From Centroberyx gerrardi (taxonomy: Eukaryota > Chordata > Actinopteri > Beryciformes > Berycidae), in NCBI RefSeq assembly GCF_048128805.1, contig NC_135999.1, positions 16,061,190 through 16,125,189 of the forward strand: a stretch of DNA of 64,000 nucleotides, given 5' to 3'. The notes under the pieces are model-generated. The model was not told the DNA's origin. It ran no database searches and was given only the letters and a program-made list of their open reading frames with translations. This document shows, in pieces, positions 13,433-53,520 of this stretch. How positions within the stretch are numbered: position 1 is the first letter of the stretch; each line of letters opens with the position of its first letter. Position numbers and translations under genes: made by a program.

Positions 13433-14209
13433 TGCTAACAGTCCCCATAAGTCAATCTGTGAAAAGATGGAGATGGAGATCAGTTTGAGCAATGGACAAG
13501 AAGTCAGTTATTTTCTATTAATCTAATGAAATTCATTATTTAGTTGCAGACTTACACAATTTCCTCAATATTTTCCCAATTAAACAAGACATAGCCTACA
13601 GGATATACAGGACGGTATCTAGAAAATACAATATAATGTTAATCACCTTTTGAGCACATGAAAAACATCACATTTGATAAAAATGTCCCCCTTCTCCTCT
13701 AAGGTGTCACCTTTAAGAAAGGCTGCTGTACTGCCTTCAGACAACAGTGACAAAAAGTTACAGCATTTTTATTACATCTGGTGATTTTGTGGGTTTTCAA
13801 AGTGTTTAATATTATTTCAATGTTGACTGTATTGATGATTTGGCTGCTAAATATCCATCTAGCAACATTATGGAGATAAGGGATGATATACAGTATATAC
13901 ATACATATATATATATATACAGACTATATATACAGTCTTAATTAGTCTAATCCAACCTGAAAATCTAAATTTAAGTTACTTAAATATTACGACTGACTTA
14001 TTTTGAGGTAGGAAAGTTAGCCCCTCCCCCTTGGCTAATCTTGAGTTAAGAACTTTGTTTATGGCAACAAGTCGGTCTAACTGTCAGAGTGGGAAGTTTA
14101 AATACTGAAGCTGTTTCATATAAGATGGCAAATCTTTGGTTTTTGGAAAGAGCCTGAAGAAGAGAGCAAGTCTGTGCTGGCCTGAGCCCGAGCCGGGGTC
14201 TGCAAGAAT

Positions 14210-14950
14210 ATGCTGCAGCAGCGGGCCATCCAGACCAATGGTGATGAGCTGGAGAAAACTATCCCAGAGCTGCAGGTTGAGCTGCAGGAAGCTAAAAATG
14301 AGGCACAGCAGCAGGCTGATGAAATCAAGGCCTTTGAGGTGGAGCAGGAGGCGCTTAACAAAGAAATGGAGCAGCTAAATGAAATGCTCCACAGGGAGAA
14401 GCAGCTGAGCTCCCAGGTTGCAGACAAAAGTCACGCTACCATCCTGGGCCTGCAGCTTAAACTCATGGACAACAACATCATCGAGGAGGAGGCAGTCTAC
14501 AAAAAAGAGGAGCTGGAGGAGACTCTCCAAAAGGAGAAAGAGAAAGCGTTGGAGAAGTGCCGGGCCTCCCAGCAGGCTCAGGAGAAGGAGGGAAGTGGCA
14601 AAAAAGACGAAATCATGGCCTCCCTCATGCTGGCTGAGCAGCAGCTGGAGAGCCTCCTCCTCCATTGGCAGGAGGAGAAGACCGCTCTCCTCAGGACCCA
14701 AAATGAGACCCATTGGGTCCTGGAGGAGAGGGAGCAAGCGTGGGACAAGGCAGAGAAGAACTTGATGGCCAAGCTTGCTGACCCGGAGAGGGGCATGGCT
14801 GACATTTTGAAGAAGAAGCCAAAGCTGGCTACGACGACTCATCGACGCCCTGACTCCGACCGCAAGGAGAAGCAGAAGAAGGAGAAGATGGAGTCCACCT
14901 CTAACCAGGACTTCAGAAAATTCCTCCAATTCTTCAAGCGAAGAACCTGA
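14210..14950 (+). CDS. Intronless coiled-coil protein of unknown identity
   Basis: A single open frame of 246 codons, rich in Glu, Lys, Gln and Leu. Heptad repeats run over roughly residues 10-190 (ELEKTIPELQVELQEAKNEA, then KKEELEETLQKEKEKALEKC and LEEREQAWDKAEKNLMAKLA). The tail is basic, KEKQKKEKMESTSNQD then FRKFLQFFKRRT. AATAAA follows at 15026. No splice signals break it. The same frame reads sensibly upstream of the ATG (FGFWKEPEEESKSVLA) but is cut by a TGA at 14183, so the present ATG may be a secondary start. It may be a retrocopy of a multi-exon coiled-coil gene, intact or just broken. I do not recognise the parent. Confidence 0.5.
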   Translation: MLQQRAIQTNGDELEKTIPELQVELQEAKNEAQQQADEIKAFEVEQEALNKEMEQLNEMLHREKQLSSQVADKSHATILGLQLKLMDNNIIEEEAVYKKEELEETLQKEKEKALEKCRASQQAQEKEGSGKKDEIMASLMLAEQQLESLLLHWQEEKTALLRTQNETHWVLEEREQAWDKAEKNLMAKLADPERGMADILKKKPKLATTTHRRPDSDRKEKQKKEKMESTSNQDFRKFLQFFKRRT

Positions 14951-24149: not shown

Positions 24150-25855
24150 TTAGGATGCCATCCAGATGGTGAAGGGGATGAGCAGGGTGGGTAAAGTGGT
24201 CAGCGGCGTCACAGAGCCCAGATACAGCATGGCTCCTACACCACACAGGGCGGTGAAATAGGCACTCATCCTGCTGCACACAATCTTCCTCACTGCTGTG
24301 CAGAACTGCAAGAAAGACAGTGAGAATTAGACAAAGCGCTCAGAAACTTTAGTGCAAAGTAAATTATAAATCAGAAGTGCAGCGGGTGGCTGTTGTCAAG
24401 AAAAAATGCAGAGAGAGTCTTTGTTGCCTCCACAATAATGTCAGTAATTTGGGCGTAAAGTAACACTAGATGGTGCTGCTCACCTCATGAATGACTGAAC
24501 TTAGTTTTCAGTTCAGCAAATAACCCCCTGCTGTGAAAAAAATCCTCATACGACCAAATGTCAGAAAATGTCTTTCTCTACCTGACCTGCTCTTATTAAA
24601 AGTATGTTAGCTGGTGGAGGAGTAAGCTGCAACAGTAAAATACTCTGTCATTGTGAAATGAGTATTTGAGCACAACACTGGTTTTTAACATAAGATTCCT
24701 TAAGCCACCTTCCCTCATAAGTACATTCAGATTCTTTCCACTTTGCACGTGAGTGTTAATACACACATATTGTCCAATAATCTTGTTTTCACTAAATCCC
24801 TGGAAATGCTTCAAGGTATTTCTCATACAACACATGCAATGCATCTCTCTTCAAAACAAGATCTCTTACATGTGACCTTCCTAGTGCAACAGTCCCCAAG
24901 ATTCAATGTCAGAGGAAGTTTGTTTCCTCCATCACATGCCAACAGGACATTGGCCCACATGTAGGTTTAGCTGTTCATATCAATGAGGAGTCAAAAAGCC
25001 TTGGTCACTGATCTTAGATCAGCAACATTTTTGCTCTGGACACTTGATAAAAATGGTATATTTTATACTGTAAAAAAGCATCTTCACCCCACGTAAATCT
25101 GCTGAGTACAAAGAAGGCACTCATTGCTCATAATAATCATCACAGACTGTAGCTTTTTTTGTAACAAGTTATTCCACTGTGATATAAATAATGACTTCTA
25201 TATATTTCACAACAGGCTCTTGGAATTGCCTCAATCTGTGATATATTTACCAGTTTGTCAGACAATGGGCAAACCATACTTTAATGCTGTCCTACAAGAT
25301 TACCCAGCTGTGTTTTCACTGCTCTGATATGAAGCTTTCCAGCAGACAGGAGGCCAGTTACTCTACCTGGTATGTCTGGTAGCTGATGGTCATGCCGTAT
25401 CGACAGTACATGACGTAGTGTTCACAGTTGTACCACAGTAAGCTGTAGGTGATGGAGCCCAGCAGCTTCTCCGCCCGCCGGGCGACCTCGTCCCCGTCCA
25501 TGGGAGGCTGGCTGCACACCTTGTCCATGTGGTTGACCAGAATCTCTGAGCCATAAGCAAAATCCTCCAAAGAGTCCACCCTGACGCTGGCCACCTTGGC
25601 GATAACTCCTAGTATCAGACGGTTGTTTGTCACCATCTTGGCAATAGCAGATTTATTCTTGGAAATCACTGGCAGGATGTCTGGGATGAGATGAGCCACC
25701 CGGTTGTCACCCAAGTAAATACCAAAATGGGTGAATAAGGTCCTGGGGACTTCTAACAGGTCGCCACGCTTGTAATGCGACAGGTCGTATTTAGAGTCCT
25801 CCTTTCTGACTTTGGAAGCCACAAAGAAAATGTTGAGTAGTTGGAAAGGAAACAT
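24150..25855 (-). CDS. lrat: Lecithin retinol acyltransferase, tandem copy 1
   Basis: LRAT moves an acyl chain from phosphatidylcholine to retinol on ER membranes. Two exons, 25367-25855 and 24150-24305, join in phase and give 214 residues. NlpC/P60-type catalytic residues are present: His43 in FTHFGIYLGD, His55 in NRVAHLIPD and Cys144 in YNCEHYVMYC. The His43 to Cys144 spacing of 101 equals that of human LRAT (60 and 161). The second exon encodes the C-terminal membrane anchor (CGVGAMLYLG, ending LLIPFTIWMAS). The N-terminal hydrophobic segment is short (MFPFQLLNIFFV). The frame is open upstream, but the next in-frame start would be GTG, so the ATG at 25855 is preferred. A TATA-like ATAAATAAAG lies about 40 bases upstream. 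The ends differ enough from copy 2 that they are probably old paralogues; which is lrata or lratb is not decided. Confidence 0.92.
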
Positions 25856-25892
25856 GATGGCAGTCTGCAGCACACTGTTGGACACCTGAGCA

Positions 25893-25903
25893 CTTTATTT
25901 ATG
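25893..25903 (-). promoter_or_regulatory. TATA-like box of LRAT copy 1
   Basis: CATAAATAAAG on the minus strand, about 40 bases before the ATG at 25855. It predicts a start of transcription near 25868 and a very short 5' UTR. Confidence 0.45.
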
Positions 25904-27080: not shown

Positions 27081-28120
27081 TCAACCAGCCATCCACAGAG
27101 TGAAGGGGATAAGAATTGTGGGTAATGTAGTTGAAGGTGCCATGCCAAAAGAGACGATGGAGATAATTCCAAGAAGAGCTGCTACAATGATGCTCCGCTG
27201 GTCTCGGATGATGGATTTCAAGCACTCGCAAAACTACAAAGGAAAGAAACACAAATTAATGTGTATGCAATATTTTATGCACTCTGCTAAAAGATAACTA
27301 ACAGGCCTACTGTTTTTTGCAACTTGGTGTACAACACTAAAGCATTAAGTCTGCATACATTATCATCATTTGGTTACTTCATATTGACATCATGAATTTT
27401 GAACGCGGAGTTTATAATATATTCAATAAAATATCAGCAAAAGGATTATTCATATTAATTCCAAACATGCCATTGGTGTGACGCATTTATGCAAACATGC
27501 AATTCACAGAATTCAGCTGCAGAATGAGACTTTGTAACTAAAAGCATTAATTTAAAGAAAAGTGTGAATTGTTGCAGGCTGTATACCTTTTCTGTCTGCT
27601 GACTTGCGGCAGATCCGTATCTGCAGTGTGTCACAAAGTGTTCACAGTTGTTCCATAGCAAACTGTATGGGATTGCTCCAATACGTTTTTCGGCTCTCTT
27701 TGCGACATCTTCATTCTGAAATGCTTGTGTCTTGATCAGCTGATCCATATGGTTTACCATTATGTTGGAGCCATATGCAAAGTCTTCCAGTGTGTCCACG
27801 CGCACCGTGGCAAACCTGTACATGCAGCCAAGGATGAGTCTCTTGTTTGTTATTACAGTGCTGATCAACTTCTTGTCATTTGTAAGTACAGGCAGGATGT
27901 CGGGGATCAGGTGAGCGACTTTATTGTCGCCTAAATAGATCCCATAGTGAGTGAATAAAGTTCTCGGAACCTCCAGCAGGTCTCCTCTCCTGAAAAACGG
28001 CAGAGGGACGCGCTGCGTCGCGCGCTCCCTGCGCTCACCACCCGACCATTTGGACTCAAAAAGTTTGAAGTTGGAGAGAAGGGATAACTTCTCGACCAGG
28101 AATGTCAACAGGTGGAGCAT
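27081..28120 (-). CDS. lrat: Lecithin retinol acyltransferase, tandem copy 2
   Basis: Same family as the copy 1.2 kb downstream. Two exons, 27587-28120 and 27081-27233, give 228 residues (human 230). Catalytic set: His58 in [10 protein letters not shown], His70 in KVAHLIPD, Cys159 in [10 protein letters not shown]. The N-terminal membrane helix ([20 protein letters not shown]) and the C-terminal anchor exon ([14 protein letters not shown] ending [10 protein letters not shown]) closely follow human LRAT. This copy is the more human-like of the two. Start: upstream in-frame ATGs exist at 28165 and 28294, but a TATA-like box at 28169-28179 makes 28120 the best choice. Confidence 0.93.
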
Positions 28121-28168
28121 TGCGAAAGTTTGCGTGGAAAGTGTCTGAGGGTGCTTGAGCGACATGGG

Positions 28169-28179
28169 CTTTTTATCCC
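28169..28179 (-). promoter_or_regulatory. TATA-like box of LRAT copy 2
   Basis: GGGATAAAAAG on the minus strand, about 50 bases upstream of the ATG at 28120, with a CCAATC box about 55 bases further upstream near 28230. Transcription would start near 28145, downstream of the ATGs at 28165 and 28294, which decides the start codon. Confidence 0.5.
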
Positions 28180-28329
28180 CATCTGCACGAGGAGGAGACG
28201 CGAGCTCAGAGAAAATCCCGAGAACATGATTGGTCACGAGCGAACTTCTTACTGCATTAATAATGCACGTGCACTTTCTTCTTTGTGTCAGCATCTTGCA
28301 AAATATTTCCTGCCTGTATTTCCCTGATT

Positions 28330-45200: not shown

Positions 45201-48144
45201 GAGGTCTAGTAATAATAATTACGAATAATAATTATTATGATTTGAGCACCTCAAATTAATTTTATCCTTTATTTAAAGAATATGCTAGTGTTTTTTTTTC
45301 TTCCCACCTATGCTGCAAAATGTCGCCAGTATTTTGTAAATCTTTTTTTTTTAATTTTATTTTAATTGTGAGTGCTATTTCAGTAATTTGAGCCATGTCA
45401 GAGTGATTAATATACATACATATATAATTAGGGCCCCTCAAGTGATATCGAAAGCACTTTTATCAATCTCTACAACTGCTGCTCTCATGTGATTACAACT
45501 CTCCTGCCAGCTCTAGGTGGCACCCTGGAGAAACTGTCTGTGAATGTCTGTAATAGGCGTAATATGACCTGAAGGCTCTTTCTCTTGTCAGATCTGGGAC
45601 CTGGCCAGTGGGAAGCTGAAACTCTCCCTGACCGGACACATCAGTACGGTCCGTGGTGTGGCGGTCAGCGGCCGCAGCCCCTACCTCTTCTCCTGTGGAG
45701 AAGACAAGCAAGTCAAGTGTTGGGATCTGGAGTACAACAAGGTACGCCATTATAATGGATTAGTGGGCAGCAGGGTGGCCTAGAGGTTAGAGAGACCGTC
45801 CTTCAGTTGGTGGACCCAGGGCCCCGCCTCAGCAATTATCTGCCCAGTTGAAGTTTGCTTAATTAAGACACTGAATCACTACAGGCTCCAGGGGTGCTGT
45901 TCTTCAGCTGACCCTGTGCTCTGAGCTCCCTGAAGGGGGGCAAGTCAACAGACAATTTCTCCACGGGATCAATTAAGCATCACATTACTGAATGACTTGT
46001 TTTTGATTCATATATGAATGACTATAAAACATTCTGTGTTGCATTATCATTCTGTAAATCTGGTCTAGGTCTTAAATTAAAAGCCTTAGCCATAAAATTA
46101 ATTTTTGGTTGATCTGTGATATCTTGCCATTCTCTTGACAATGTCCATCTGTGTATTAGGTCATCAGGCACTACCACGGACACCTGAGTGCTGTGTATGA
46201 CTTGGACCTTCATCCAACCATCGACGTGCTGGTGACGTGCAGCAGAGATGCCACAGCAAGGGTAAGGTCTGCTAGCTGCGCATGTACTACATCAAATATA
46301 TTGTTGGCAGTGCTATAATTAAGTCACTTAACTTTGAATCTTGTCCCGGTCCAGTTTCCATTTAAAGGATGCAATCTACAGTTCATTTTAGTCTGGTCTG
46401 AATTGAAGTGGAAAAATTAACTTTGTGAATATGAGCATCAGTCCAGACTACGGTTTGCCCTCATGTTGTTATGCTCAGTTTTCCAAGCATGATGAACTGC
46501 TCGCTATGAGATGTCAAAATCCATCTCTTTATACCCATAAAACTATATGGAACAATGGTCGAGTAATGAACAACATACTCATAAAAGCATGCGTGTTTGT
46601 ATTGTTTCCTGTAATTGGTGCGATTACGTTATCACTCCTAACAAAGGGCATCACAGTTCGGTTTGAAGAGGACTGGTCATGTGAATGCTTAATTAGTCCG
46701 ACCTTTTAATTGAATGTGATTTCATCTGTCAACATTGAGTGTTCATAATTGGTTTTCCTCTCTGCCCTTGCAGGTGTGGGACATCCGGACAAAAGCCAAC
46801 GTGCACACCCTGTCCGGCCACACCAACACTGTGGCCACAGTCAGATGCCAGGCTGCAGAGCCACAAATCATCACTGGTAAATAAAACTGGCAAACTTGAT
46901 CCAAGCATACCGATCATATCTCATTCTCTTCAGTCCCTCAATGTTACTGTGTGTTTACTCTTGTGGCTAATTGACTGGCTTTTTACTATATAGTCTCAGA
47001 TTGTCAAATTATTGACCTCTTGCAGGCAGCCACGATTCAACCATCAGGCTGTGGGATTTGATTGCTGGGAAGACCAGAGCCACTCTGACCAACCATAAGA
47101 AGTCTGTCCGAGCTCTGGTGTTGCACCCCAGACAGTAAGCAAACTCATACTCTAAGATAAGCTCATGTTGATTGTAATAATTTTCAGCAATATGACATTA
47201 ACCCTAGGGATAATAGTTGTGTACATTGTTTATGATGACATTTACCAGTACAAAAACACATTAAGAGTTTGAAATATGCTTAATATCCCATCACCCATTC
47301 TTTGTGTTTTACAGATACACCTTTGCCTCTGGCTCTGCCGACAACATCAAGCAGTGGATGTTCCCAGACGGCAACTTCATCCAGAACCTGTCTGGTCACA
47401 ACGCCATTATCAACACTCTGGCTGTTAACTCAGATGGCGTGTTGGTGTCTGGAGGTATTAATAACCAGCCACATTGGCACCTTTTTTTACTCAAGTGCTT
47501 GTTTCATCTGAAGTTCATGTTTAACCGTCATTGCTGAATAATGGACCAGCTGTTTTTGGTGTTAATGTTGATTTCTGATGGGTGTTTTGTGATTAAATGC
47601 TGGGGGTATTGGATCAGAAACACATGAAGCTCCAAGATGACTCATCATACACATTTATCTTCTCTCTGCAGCCGACAATGGAACCATCCATATGTGGGAT
47701 TGGAGAACAGGCTACAACTTCCAGAGAATTCATGCCGCTGTGCAGCCTGGTTCCCTGGACAGCGAATCGGGGATCTTTGCCTGCATGTTCGACAACTCAG
47801 AAAGCAGACTGATCACCGCCGAGGCTGACAAGACCATCAAAGTGTACAAGGAGGACGACACAGCTGTAAGTTACACTGTTACATTTTAAAAATCAGTATA
47901 GGTTTCAGTGTCGGTAGAGTTTCAGAAGTCTGACTTCAAAAGAGGTGTTCAGCAAATTTAATTTAACATCTAATTGTTTTAACACTGGGTATTGTAGTAT
48001 ATATATTTAGTTTGTGAAAGTCATTGTCATGAAATTTCCAGTTAACAAATGGATCAATTGTTAACCCTCCTTTATTTCTTGCAGACGGAAGAAAGCCACC
48101 CAGTCAACTGGAAACCAGAGATCCTCAAGAGGAAAAGATTCTAA
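42288..48144 (+). CDS. plrg1: Pleiotropic regulator 1, WD40 spliceosome protein
   Basis: Core component of the PRP19/CDC5L complex needed for spliceosome activation in the nucleus. Fifteen exons: 42288-42296, 42572-42678, 42874-43010, 43411-43464, 43586-43679, 44450-44540, 44665-44763, 44905-44997, 45592-45741, 46160-46261, 46774-46876, 47026-47134, 47315-47454, 47672-47865, 48085-48144. All are in phase and give 513 residues (human 514). The first exon codes only three residues (MTE). A low-complexity N-terminal half ends in [17 protein letters not shown]. Seven WD40 repeats follow, such as [39 protein letters not shown] and [18 protein letters not shown]. The tail is [12 protein letters not shown]. 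Nearly identical to human over the propeller. A SINE sits in the intron after 45741. Confidence 0.97.
45757..45990 (+). mobile_element. tRNA-derived SINE in a plrg1 intron
   Basis: The head GGGTGGCCTAGAGGTTAGAG resembles a tRNA A box. The body is followed by the tail ATTTCTCCACGGGATCAATT, related to the tail of the SINE near 10.15 kb though the heads differ. It starts 16 bases after the end of an exon and lies in the sense direction. Confidence 0.75.
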
Positions 48145-48342
48145 AGATTTTTTTTTTATTGTTCTCATTCATGTTGTCATAGAAACCACCTTGAAAAACT
48201 TGTCTACCAGGCCACCTGTTGTAGATGTACCCATCAATTTTGCTTGTTAGTGCTTATTCATAAGACAAATATTTCCATAACAGACGCTACTTTGACAATA
48301 ACCGCCACCTATTGGACAGAAGAACTTCACCCAGTGTTCCTC

Positions 48343-48348
48343 TTTATT
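48343..48348 (-). terminator. Poly(A) signal overlapping the TIR gene stop codon
   Basis: The end GAA TAA AGA contains AATAAA, so the stop codon is inside the signal. If used, the 3' UTR would be about 20 bases. Another minus-strand AATAAA lies at 48155-48160, next to the plrg1 stop. Confidence 0.4.
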
Positions 48349-50239
48349 CTAAAAACCATTTGCAGTCTTCGTTGTATGATGTTAGTCCAATAAAGCTGCC
48401 GTTTTGGACTGCCAGGAACCTCCCAGAATGTTTGTTCTTGATGATGACGGCTCTCTGGTGGCTCTGGTCCGTCTGGTCCACCAACAGCAGCCACTTCTCG
48501 GCCTCAGAGGGACCGGCCTTAGAGTACACATGGTCCTCACTGGGGTCAAACCCTGCAGTGGGACAGACAATGAGGCCTCTTTGTTCCTAATGCCCTGAAA
48601 TCATTCTTTTTGTATTGACCCAACAGAATCGCTAATTGTACATACAGGGAATCAAACATTTCCCCTTTTTTTGGCTTGCAATTTGATGTTTATATTGCTG
48701 CATTAATAAAGGGCACAATTTTTTTCACATCCTTCCTGTTTCTTTATTTTGTAGAGATGAAACGCCATACTTACCGAGGTATCTGTTGGTGACAATGTTC
48801 CGGTAGTATTTGCAGCCATTACCCTTACTCTCCTCCCAGTACCCATGATCCCCAGGTGTCTCCTGGAGCTCCACTGTATTCATGGTATCAGTCTCTGGGT
48901 CGAATATCTGCTCACCTGTTGAATCAAGTCATGGCTTTAATTATACGTGCGAAGGCATCAGCTTGTTTTCAGCATTGATGCTAGATTAATAACAGCCTGC
49001 ATTGTTAACCACACAACCAAGTTTCCATGTGTAAGTCTCAAACCTCATTGTGCTATTATGAGTCTCAGCTCAGCTTTAAAAAAAACGTGTCATTGGTTTT
49101 ATTGTGTTGTTGGTGTAGTTTTTGTATCCATGACAACAACAAATCCTGGCCCATATACAGTATCTACCTGAGTCGTGGATGTAGAGCATAGAGAGAGCAT
49201 GGCGAAAGCCTCGGCCTGGCTTCTTCTTCAGGCAGCGTTTCGGGGACTCCGGCTCATCCTCCACCTCATTAGCAGGCTCCTCCACAGTCAGGAGGTGACC
49301 GGCATTAAACATGATCTCCTCCTCCAGAGACTGAAGACTCATCTCAAAGTGCTCCTCACCCTTCTCTGCGTTTCTGGAAGATGTTAGCACAGACAATTAG
49401 ATGTAAAATATATTTGAGAAGTCAGTTTAAAGCTATTCACGTTTGGAAACAGTCTTAATGAATGGTGCTTTATTCTAAAAAACATTTATTTCATCCTACG
49501 CCAAAAGTAACATACTGTAGGCCTAAGTAGTTAATTTGTATGAGACATGCTTCTCTCAATGAAAATGAAATACTGAAATAATGACATAAGATTTAAAGAC
49601 CACTGTATGAGTGATAGAACTCCATACCATAAATCAATTCTCTGCCATCTGAGTATTACATTGTTTTCCCCTCCATAATTTATTTGGTATAAAATGTGAC
49701 CCGTCTATTTGAAAGGCCCCCTCACCTGAAGTCCACCCACAGCAGGCCAGCAGTGATCAGTCCCAGCCACTCACTGGCCTCCCAGTTCCTGGCCAGCATT
49801 ACTGGCACCATGATGACCTCTCTGGTGTCAGCGTAGTTCAGCTCCTTCTTACAGCTGCGGGACGCCTGGTAAGCTGGAGTCATGAACGGACAAATCACTA
49901 CGGCCTCCTCCACACCTGCAGCCATCCTGACAACACACACACACACATAGCTTTTGCTTAAACCAGGAGGGAGGCCAGTTTTAGTGTATAATATCTAACT
50001 GCAAGGTGTGAAGTCATCATGACAAGCAAGGACTGATCCTCTCGGTGATTATGAATGTAAAGGGTTCATCCATTACCACCATCTTTCAAGGACTGTACTC
50101 ACGCATCGTTGATGTTGCCTGTCACCCCTCCCTCGATATCCATCCATACTGGTAAGCCATCATCTTTGAGGCGGTTGTATATCCTCTTCACAAGGGCTTG
50201 GTCATCCCACTGGTAGGAGAGCATAATATGAGCTGGCAT
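48344..50239 (-). CDS. TIR-domain protein with beta-trefoil-like C-terminus
   Basis: Five exons on the minus strand, 50103-50239, 49726-49926, 49168-49373, 48775-48915 and 48344-48552, join in phase with GT/AG borders and give 297 residues. Residues 1-113 read as a TIR domain: strand A HIMLSYQWDD, helix KRIYNRLKDDG, VWMDIEGG before the BB loop, then VVICPFMTPAYQASRSCKKE and REVIMVPVMLARNW. Residues 114-175 are a Glu-rich, then Lys-rich linker. Residues 176-297 look like two or three beta-trefoil units of fascin type, with NRYLGFDPSEDHVYSK and HSGRFLAVQNGSFIGLTSYN. No transmembrane helix or signal peptide. The ATG at 50239 is supported by homology-like fit, but an acceptor-like TTTTAG 14 bases upstream leaves room for an earlier exon. 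I know no named vertebrate gene with this architecture; related TIR proteins seem common in invertebrates. Confidence 0.82.
48389..48394 (+). terminator. Candidate plrg1 poly(A) signal inside the antisense TIR gene
   Basis: AATAAA 245 bases after the plrg1 stop. It lies within the last coding exon of the TIR gene on the other strand. A second AATAAA is at 48705. Confidence 0.45.
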
Positions 50240-51489
50240 TTTCTCTTTTTCAACTAAAATATATGAGGAAACAAGCCTGTGTCAAGTTCACTCCACTCCA
50301 GGAGTTTTTACAGCCTGTGGTACTGACAGTTGCTGAAGAAGCTGTCCCAGACAAAGGTAAAAGTTGGTAGCTATGCTGCTTGTTTACATCTCAGGTTACA
50401 TCCGTTGCTTGGTTACAGTACAGCAGTGGGAGGATGCACACCTGCATGCTATGCCTGCAAGACCCATAAGGGATCCACAGTGATCTGGGCAGTTACAGAG
50501 TTATGACCCAAGAATGAATGTAAGGTGTTTGATTTAGATGTAGGCCTGAATTCTGTTGTTTACACTGACAGTGACTATTCAGTTCAATTCAATTCAATTC
50601 AATTCAATTCAATTCAATTCAATATACCAAGCATGTTGTGAACATTGTCTGTGGCTGTACTGGGATGAGTTGGGGTGGTAGTGTGTGTGTGGTGGGTTAT
50701 GCAACACCTTCATTTGCCTTGTTCACATGTTCATGGAATGGAATGAAATAACTAATGGGACTATGGACTGAGTACAGTTAGCAATGTTTCTTATTGCCGG
50801 TAGAGGGCGCCATGTCAACATAATATGGGCCTATGCTAAAACTGAAAATGACTTGGTTCAACCGCTTATTCGTTTGATTTAGTCTGTGTCGAAACAACGA
50901 CTTTACTATTTTAGTCTGGGTTTTTTTTTTTGGATTTTTTTAAATCAATCACATATGTTATTCAATCTATTTCCCGAGTAGCTTTACCGTACGTAATTGT
51001 ATCTCTCTCTCTACTTTTCTTGCACACTTTACAACAGGTAAAACATGATGGCATCTATCAGCACGCGGCCCTTCTTGTGTGCTGCAGCCCGCACGTCATG
51101 GTAATCTTGGCCTAATTAAGTCTTGGGCAATCCCGGCCACAGATGGAGTTGAGCAGCCTGGGACGGTCGCCGACAGGAGGTGTGTTCAGTGCGCACAGCG
51201 GGCTGCACTGTGGCCACAAGACATTTCAGTGTAGTAATGTGTGAACGAGGCCAGGATTTTTGCGTTAGGAATACTACTCCTGTGGGATTATAGGGTCCAA
51301 AATCAGCCTGGAAATCTGCTGGAATCATGTTTTATACCTACGATGGAGAATGACTACTGGCTGTTTTCCTGCGCGCAAAAATGCGCATGGTGCGTTCACC
51401 TGCCTTTATTTTGAGAGGTGGTCTAAGACGTGAGTGAGGAGTGACTTTGATACGGAAATATGTAGGGTGACCTCGACTCGGATATCAAT
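50240..51489. other. Shared upstream region between the TIR gene and dchs2
   Basis: The two genes are divergent and about 1.25 kb apart. The region has an AATTC pentanucleotide repeat (50583-50624) and, on the right, the dchs2 5' UTR. No other coding exon is recognised, though a 5' exon of the TIR gene may lie here. Confidence 0.5.
50583..50624 (+). repeat. (AATTC)n pentanucleotide repeat
   Basis: About eight units of AATTC/TTCAA upstream of the TIR gene. Confidence 0.95.
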
Positions 51490-53520
51490 ATGTGTAAAGG
51501 AGGAATGGGTCACCAAAATGTAAGAACTTTGCTCCTTCCAACACTTGTCCTGTCGCTGCTGTGCGCGCCGTCACTCGGACAGGTGTCCAACCTGACGCTC
51601 TCTGTTGAGGAGGGTCTGCCCGCTAAAACCATCGTTGGAGACATTGGAGCGGCGTTAAGCAGGCCGAGCACTGGATTCTTCATCTCAGAAAGCAGAGACT
51701 CTTATGTTTTCAAAGATCTGGAAATAGATGCGGACACTGGTATCATTTCCACAGCCATCATTTTGGACAGAGAGAGTAGAGATAAGTATGAATTTGTGGC
51801 AGCCACTCTTACAGGTGAGATGATAAAAGTGAAAATAGTGGTTAAAGATGTGAATGACCATTCTCCTATGTTTTCCTCTAAGGAGGTTGACTTGGAAATA
51901 TCAGAATTAAGTCCCCCGGGAACTCGCTTTCAGCTCGGAGGTGCCAAAGACCAGGATGAGGGTGAGTTTGCAACCCAGGGATACAGAATCACTGACAGTG
52001 AGATGGGGGAGTTATTCCACATGGAATATCGCAATGGATCTGATAACCCCTTCAACCTCGATCTCATCCTCACCAACAAACTGGACAGGGAAGCGAGAGA
52101 CTCTTACTCCCTGACCATCGAGGCGTTCGATGGGGGGATCCCTGCCCGGACGGGACGGCTTCAGGTCAACATTCATGTCTTGGATGAGAACGACAACCCA
52201 CCCATGTTCAACCAGACAGAGTATCACGCCTTTGTGTCTGAGGATGCTCCAGTCATGTCTGCTGTGTGTCAGGTTCAGGCCACAGACCTTGACCTGGGTG
52301 ACAATGGCCAAATCACCTATGAGATAAACAGGCGCCAGAGTGACTCAAATGAGGTTTTCTTCATCAACGAAACCACTGGTGTGATTTACATCAATAAACC
52401 GCTTGATTTCGAGACTCAGCCTTTTCACGAGCTCATCATCAGTGCGAGGGACAACGGCGCTCAGCCTGAGTACAGTAGCACTTTTGTGGGTGTGAAGGTG
52501 CTTAACATCAATGACAACAGCCCCACGATCAGCATCCTGTTTCTCAGTGAGACGGGGGATGCTGTGGTGTCAGAGGCAGCAGGTATTGGGGAGTATGTTG
52601 CCCGGATATCAGTGTCGGACCCGGACCTCGAGGAGGAGAGGGTCGCAGTCACTCTCGAGGGTGGTGATGGGAAATTCACCCTGAAGCAGACAGACGATTT
52701 CCTATATGCCTTGTGCGTTGACGCTGAGCTAGACAGGGAAGAGAAGGACCTGTACGAGTTGAAGGTGCGAGCATCTGATTTCGGGAGCCCAGCTTTGAGC
52801 GGTGAGATGGTTTTTCTTGTGAAGGTCCTAGACGCCAATGACTGCCACCCAGTCTTTGAGCAGGACGCGTACACCATCAGAGTAGCTGAGGACATTCCTC
52901 AAGGGAGCTCCCTCATCCGGATGCAGGCCCGAGATGCAGACGACGGCGTCAACTCGGACGTCAGCTACTCCATCCTCAAGTCCAGCCGGGACAGCCGGGA
53001 CAGCCTGGTCAGCGTTGACCCGAAGTCGGGCCTGGTCACCACAGCTGCCGAGTTGGACAGGGAGAGAGAGGCGGAGCTGTGGTTCCTGGTGGTGGCGGTG
53101 GATGGAGGGGAACCGGCGTTGTCGTCCACGGCTACGGTCACTGTGGTGGTCGAGGACGTCAATGACAACGAGCCTGTGTTCCAGCAACAGCTGTACAACG
53201 TCTCCATCCCAGAGCACAGCGAGATCGGAAGCTGCTTTTTACAAGTATGTCGGGGTATATACAGCTTTATGGTCAGACGTGTCAAATCATCTAAAGAAAT
53301 CAATCATTTATATATACACTAACATGGTTTTACAAGAATGGAGGAGACGCATTGACCACACAACACAGAGCAGTTTAAGAAGGTCCCCACTGTGGACACT
53401 CAACCTCTCGTTCTCTCTCTCTTGCTTTCTTTTTCACACATCTCATAGGACAAAAGTAGCCTTCTTTCTCTCTGTGCACAAAGCCATCAGTGTTCCTCCT
53501 AAAGGCCCTGGCTGCTCCCA

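Follow-up and report, generated by a model that had tools for sequence, protein, structure and literature searches.

Which kind of TIR protein is encoded between PLRG1 and a cadherin gene in the fish Centroberyx gerrardi, and what might it do? The gene, here called the TIR gene, lies in a 64,000-nucleotide (nt) stretch of contig NC_135999.1, the window, to whose positions all gene coordinates refer. The initial annotation read it as a TIR domain joined to a fascin-like beta-trefoil. The best explanation, held tentatively and at a little short of even confidence, is a soluble protein with a TIR_2-type TIR domain, a linker and a C-terminal all-beta domain, likeliest a beta-trefoil, in which binding would lead to TIR assembly and then to recruitment or to cleavage of nicotinamide adenine dinucleotide (NAD+).

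An intact five-exon gene

The TIR gene is genuine and intact, with coding-like composition. Its five minus-strand exons join into 894 nt from ATG to TAA, with 297 intact codons, across introns of 176, 352, 252 and 222 nt that are GT..AG in all four cases and have running phases of 2, 2, 1 and 1. Exon joining and the splice sites thus reproduce the coordinates, the five exons, the four in-phase introns and the 297 residues given in the initial annotation. Coding exon 1 (50103..50239) carries the ATG and the first part of the TIR domain, exon 2 (49726..49926) the TIR core with a CKKEL motif, and exon 3 (49168..49373) the last part of the TIR domain, a linker running from acidic to basic, and the first part of the C-terminal domain. 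Exon 4 (48775..48915) has four predicted strands and Trp208, and exon 5 (48344..48552, including the TAA) has four predicted strands, a predicted helix, Trp249 and Trp294; both would be parts of the putative trefoil. One TIR profile spans exons 1-3 at 2e-21. The three codon positions have GC contents of 0.56, 0.37 and 0.66, and the introns 0.33-0.43. Of 20,000 single-base shuffles of the coding sequence, not one kept the frame open; this is a weak null. An additional, unannotated upstream exon may also belong to the gene.

The TIR domain and its relatives

The TIR domain claimed in the initial annotation is borne out by Pfam TIR_2 (PF13676), which matches residues 5-122 of the whole protein at 77.1 bits (2e-21) against a cut-off of 28, and the TIR part alone at 80 bits. 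The TLR-type (Toll-like receptor) model PF01582 is absent from the Pfam matches of the whole protein (E up to 10) and from those of the isolated TIR part (E up to 5); for a TLR TIR from this genome, used as control, PF01582 gives 81.8 bits and TIR_2 gives 66.3. Run over the C. gerrardi genome, the TIR_2 model gives 25 matches, 23 of them over cut-off, and two are exons 1 and 2 of the TIR gene. The top single-exon frame reaches 77.8 bits in that scan, which underscores TIRs that are split between exons.

Seven other TIRs of the genome were compared with this one, and those named TLR, SARM1, TIRAP and TICAM1 are loci that we take to be such by recognition. The closest is L007, a TIR-membrane protein (z 13.5, with 0 of 1000 shuffles as good). 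Next come the TLR L012 (z 3.0, 15/1000 shuffles), SARM1 (2.4, 37/1000), the TLRs L014 (1.7, 79/1000) and L011 (1.2, 141/1000), TIRAP (0.9, 181/1000) and TICAM1 (0.6, 272/1000). L007 belongs to a group of genes, L007-L010, that differ from the TIR gene in being single-exon frames of 424-425 residues in which hydrophobic segments can be made out by eye; in addition, the TLR-type TIR model matches L007. These four closely similar TIR frames stand in tandem at G000:C4:9369728-9379057 and form an unusual TIR-membrane gene cluster. L007 also has a weak match to DUF4481 (0.0012), under cut-off.

The Pfam scan at E up to 10 lists no leucine-rich repeat, death domain, ARM or SAM match, in agreement with the initial annotation for the first two. 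Its statement that the protein is neither a TLR nor a known adaptor holds by domain content for TLRs, MyD88 and SARM1; for TIRAP, and likewise for TICAM1, it is tentative, since the comparison of the TIR domains gave low similarity (z 0.9 and 0.6).

Two results here count against the best explanation. Overall, the protein is no more similar to fish SARM1 (z 2.4) than to one TLR (z 3.0). TIR_2 has also been assigned to vertebrate TIRAP, TRAM, TRIF and SARM1 in one paper (PMC9440496), so it is not restricted to invertebrates or bacteria, and the TIR_2 type alone fails to separate the protein from these four. The initial annotation drew a likeness to bacterial TIR defence proteins. The best match of the TIR protein in the defence library is at 1.2e-7, but two TLR TIRs of the same genome match better, at 5.8e-9 and 7.2e-9, and the likeness is therefore non-discriminating. 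The TIR protein scores better than these two TLR TIRs with the SAVED-TIR profile.

The C-terminal domain and the trefoil question

The C-terminal domain is predicted to be beta-rich, and a beta-trefoil over about residues 168-297 is plausible, not proven. Exons 4 and 5 were modelled as separate pieces by single-sequence prediction. Folded alone, exon 4 has strands at 184-187, 192-195, 207-213 and 216-222 (mean predicted local distance difference test score, pLDDT, 72), and in the exon 5 model (mean pLDDT 65, with 76-84 over residues 31-60 of the fragment) strands run over 249-254, 263-268, 274-278 and 281-286, and residues 289-296 form a helix. Together with the unmodelled ends, these strands could make twelve strands in three units. 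Trp208, Trp249 and Trp294 are spaced by 41 and 45 residues, and the first two are in predicted strands.

Three Pfam families match weakly. RicinB_lectin_2 is found at 0.12 for the whole protein and at 0.016 and 0.023 for two C-terminal cuts (13.5, 15.8 and 16.3 bits, cut-off 25.6). FGF, a trefoil family, is found at 0.092 and 0.14 for the two cuts and is not listed for the whole protein. DUF4859 is found at 0.14 for the whole protein and at 0.062 and 0.043 for the cuts. Two of the three families matched by the C-terminal cuts, RicinB_lectin_2 and FGF, are thus trefoil families. Among nine scrambled controls (eight shuffles and the reversed C-terminus), four had a weak Pfam match and none matched a trefoil family.

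Several results speak against the trefoil. Every trefoil model is under cut-off for this protein, and the reversed control has a chance Pfam match at 0.0089, better than RicinB_lectin_2. The individual trefoil E-values are therefore at chance level, and the agreement of two trefoil families is the only support from Pfam. The stretch around Trp294 (289-296) is helical in the model, whereas closing a trefoil would call for a strand there. An internal threefold repeat of the C-terminus is insignificant, with 644, 2120 and 4944 of 5000 shuffles as good for units 1-2, 2-3 and 1-3, respectively. Free self-alignment of the C-terminus was equalled by 89 of 300 shuffles, and the TIR-half control was nearer significance (13/200). 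Foldseek and VIA-align gave no usable match for the exon-5 fragment. Of the pairing proposed in the initial annotation, the TIR part thus stands and the trefoil part is plausible but unproven.

The description of the C-terminus as fascin-like does not hold. The Fascin profile (PF06268) has no match to the TIR protein in hmmscan, and its 20 sites in the C. gerrardi genome include none at the TIR locus. Four fascin loci on three contigs would fit a ray-finned fish. Aligned by hhalign with fascin units from the same genome, the C-terminus gives an E-value of 0.039, with 5 of 100 shuffles as good and a TIR-part control at 0.37; the alignment ends on the weakly similar motifs HSGRFLAVQ and SHLGRYLATD. 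A fascin relationship is rejected at the family level on the missing profile match. The likeness to the fascin family comes down to a possible beta-trefoil fold and the weakly similar GRFLAV/GRYLAT motif; the difference is that fascin has four trefoils and the TIR protein at most one, and that the fascin profile misses the TIR locus.

A possible mode of action and its alternatives

In line with the initial annotation, nothing points to a membrane helix or a signal peptide: 19-residue hydropathy peaks at 1.26, and hydrophobic character is lacking over the first 30 residues. The protein is therefore probably cytosolic. The linker, with its acidic and then basic stretches, could be a nuclear signal. 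From the sequence and the models we infer a trefoil fold, a cytosolic place, ligand binding, assembly and an output. Inside the cell, the C-terminal domain would bind either a ligand or a partner that anchors it, and this binding would bring TIR domains together. The assembled TIRs would then recruit other TIR proteins or cleave NAD+, with a slight lean towards assembly and scaffolding over enzyme activity.

The enzyme branch of this explanation can also be taken by itself as a rival, and the odds of the two overlap: ligand binding by the C-terminal domain would set off either the loss of NAD+ or a nucleotide signal, on the pattern of SARM1 and bacterial TIR defence proteins. Such an enzyme is possible but somewhat doubtful. 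Tyr9, Asp34, Gly41 and Glu74 (the last encoded in exon 2) align with SARM1 columns Y568, D594, G601 and the catalytic E642, in a numbering checked by counting back from E642. Asp at the D594 column is present only in the TIR protein and SARM1, and in none of the other six aligned TIRs. D594A, G601P and E642A reduce the NAD+ hydrolase activity of SARM1 according to one study (PMC8266388), and on these columns it is possible that the TIR protein is an NADase. The remaining columns argue the other way. SARM1 W638 and H640, which the same study places among mutants losing about 100-400-fold in kcat (PMC8266388), are Ser70 and Lys72 in the TIR protein, and the region of SARM1 H685 aligns uncleanly with it. 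Glu74 is itself non-specific, because Glu is present at the E642 column in six of the seven other aligned TIRs (not TIRAP), TLRs included.

The protein might instead be a negative regulator or decoy, whose TIR domain would bind other TIR proteins and block them, and whose C-terminal domain would hold it at membranes or at the cytoskeleton. It is small and soluble and has no death domain or other recognised output module, and its BB-loop glycine lacks a preceding proline; this last point is weak, since two of the three aligned TLRs also lack the proline, and the decoy appears distinctly improbable. It is unlikely, though less so, that the C-terminal domain is beta-rich without being a trefoil, for instance a novel fold or a portion of some other beta fold. 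The negative results of the preceding section leave room for it, but the Trp spacing of 41 and 45, the strand order and the two trefoil families among the three weak Pfam matches argue against it, and a propeller would be expected to be larger than about 130 residues. That the gene is decaying, or is a functionless pseudogene, is hardly credible. No orthologue was seen, with the C. gerrardi genome as the only animal genome searched, but the frame is intact, the splice sites are canonical and the third-position GC is coding-like. The preferred explanation remains a soluble TIR protein that would act through assembly, with an enzymatic output as its slightly less favoured branch.

Copy number, neighbourhood and relation to known TIR systems

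The TIR gene is single-copy in its own genome as far as the searches reach. The full protein searched against the genome (778.9 Mb, 278 contigs; E up to 1) gives five matches from nine candidates, all of them its own exons, and the C-terminal part (E up to 10) gives three stretches, all its own; at this sensitivity no paralogue was found. No relative was confirmed in viral contigs, plasmids, phages or prokaryote genomes (the last with the TIR part only), and the reach of the viral-contig and prokaryote-genome searches is limited to close relatives. PHROGs has no match below 0.05, and the sole NCBIfam match is FxsC_Nterm at 0.061, far under cut-off. A sequence search of solved structures (E up to 10) with the whole protein, the C-terminus and the TIR part recognised neither a TIR nor a trefoil. 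The best structure match of the C-terminus, 7on6 (SAKe6AE, 0.00024), comes from one segment of about 21 residues that aligns six times with a repeat protein, and that of the TIR part is an annexin (0.015); both are taken as chance.

The initial annotation placed the gene between PLRG1 and DCHS2. PLRG1 is confirmed by the last 84 residues of the neighbour, which match human PLRG1 at 2.3e-51; the cadherin frame on the other side fits DCHS2, a name that is the initial annotation's own. The 3' end of PLRG1 lies at lower coordinates (plus strand, stop at 48144), tail to tail with the TIR gene, and the cadherin frame (plus strand, first ATG at 51490) is head to head with it. An AATAAA at 48343..48348 on the minus strand, overlapping the stop codon, may serve the TIR gene as poly(A) signal. 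A candidate poly(A) signal for PLRG1 is an AATAAA at 48389..48394 on the plus strand, opposite TIR exon 5, and it is the sole plus-strand AATAAA or ATTAAA within 48100-48700. Since this sole candidate lies inside exon 5, PLRG1 and the TIR gene may overlap tail to tail. The interval from the TIR gene to the cadherin gene contains seven tandem CAATT units (50585-50619). Elsewhere in the window, Pfam finds fibrinogen C-terminal exons, a rhodopsin-type receptor and two LRAT-domain frames. Together with TLR-like and SARM1-like frames of the same genome, named by recognition, these genes mark the host as a vertebrate. The LRAT-domain frames are neighbours on the minus strand (25358-25894 and 27455-28327), suggesting a tandem duplication. 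A 254-residue open frame at 14186-14950 on the plus strand looks coiled-coil-like by eye and has no Pfam match over cut-off.

Several known systems share features with the TIR protein. It resembles SARM1 as a soluble TIR protein with matching Y568, D594, G601 and E642 columns, and differs in that its TIR match begins at residue 5, without ARM or SAM, and that W638 and H640 are not kept. The plant PP2-A5 protein, as described, joins a TIR to a PP2 lectin, a putative sugar-binding domain; the fusion is alike, but PP2-A5 is a plant protein and PP2 is described as a beta-sandwich. The invertebrate ecTIR-DC proteins, the novel anemone TIR_2 proteins and bacterial TIR proteins are likewise of TIR_2 type, are not TLRs and carry an extra domain, whereas the TIR gene is in a vertebrate and its product has a possible trefoil C-terminus. 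The novel anemone genes are described as mostly carrying TIR_2, termed a common bacterial TIR (PMC5094078), ecTIR-DC proteins as apparently absent in vertebrates (PMC6321704), and ecTIR-DC family 6 as reported only in other invertebrates (PMC6836662).

One paper's list of 25 human TIR genes comprises TLRs, the IL-1 receptor family, MyD88, TIRAP, TICAMs, SARM1, PIK3AP1 and BCAP/BANK1, and names no TIR-trefoil gene (PMC9440496). No description of a vertebrate TIR-trefoil protein was recognised in the literature searched, a body outside which most subscription journals fall, and fish databases may well list the gene as uncharacterised. One larger reading, which we consider unlikely as it stands, is that of an ancient invertebrate-style TIR protein kept in a vertebrate, in a conserved neighbourhood, as an intracellular trefoil sensor acting by TIR assembly or NAD+ cleavage. 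If true, it would mean a vertebrate TIR pathway distinct from both TLR/MyD88 and SARM1, one that the human list lacks. The TIR gene is a compact, testable candidate for such a further pathway, and a vertebrate gene of this kind could show loss versus partial retention of an older TIR repertoire.
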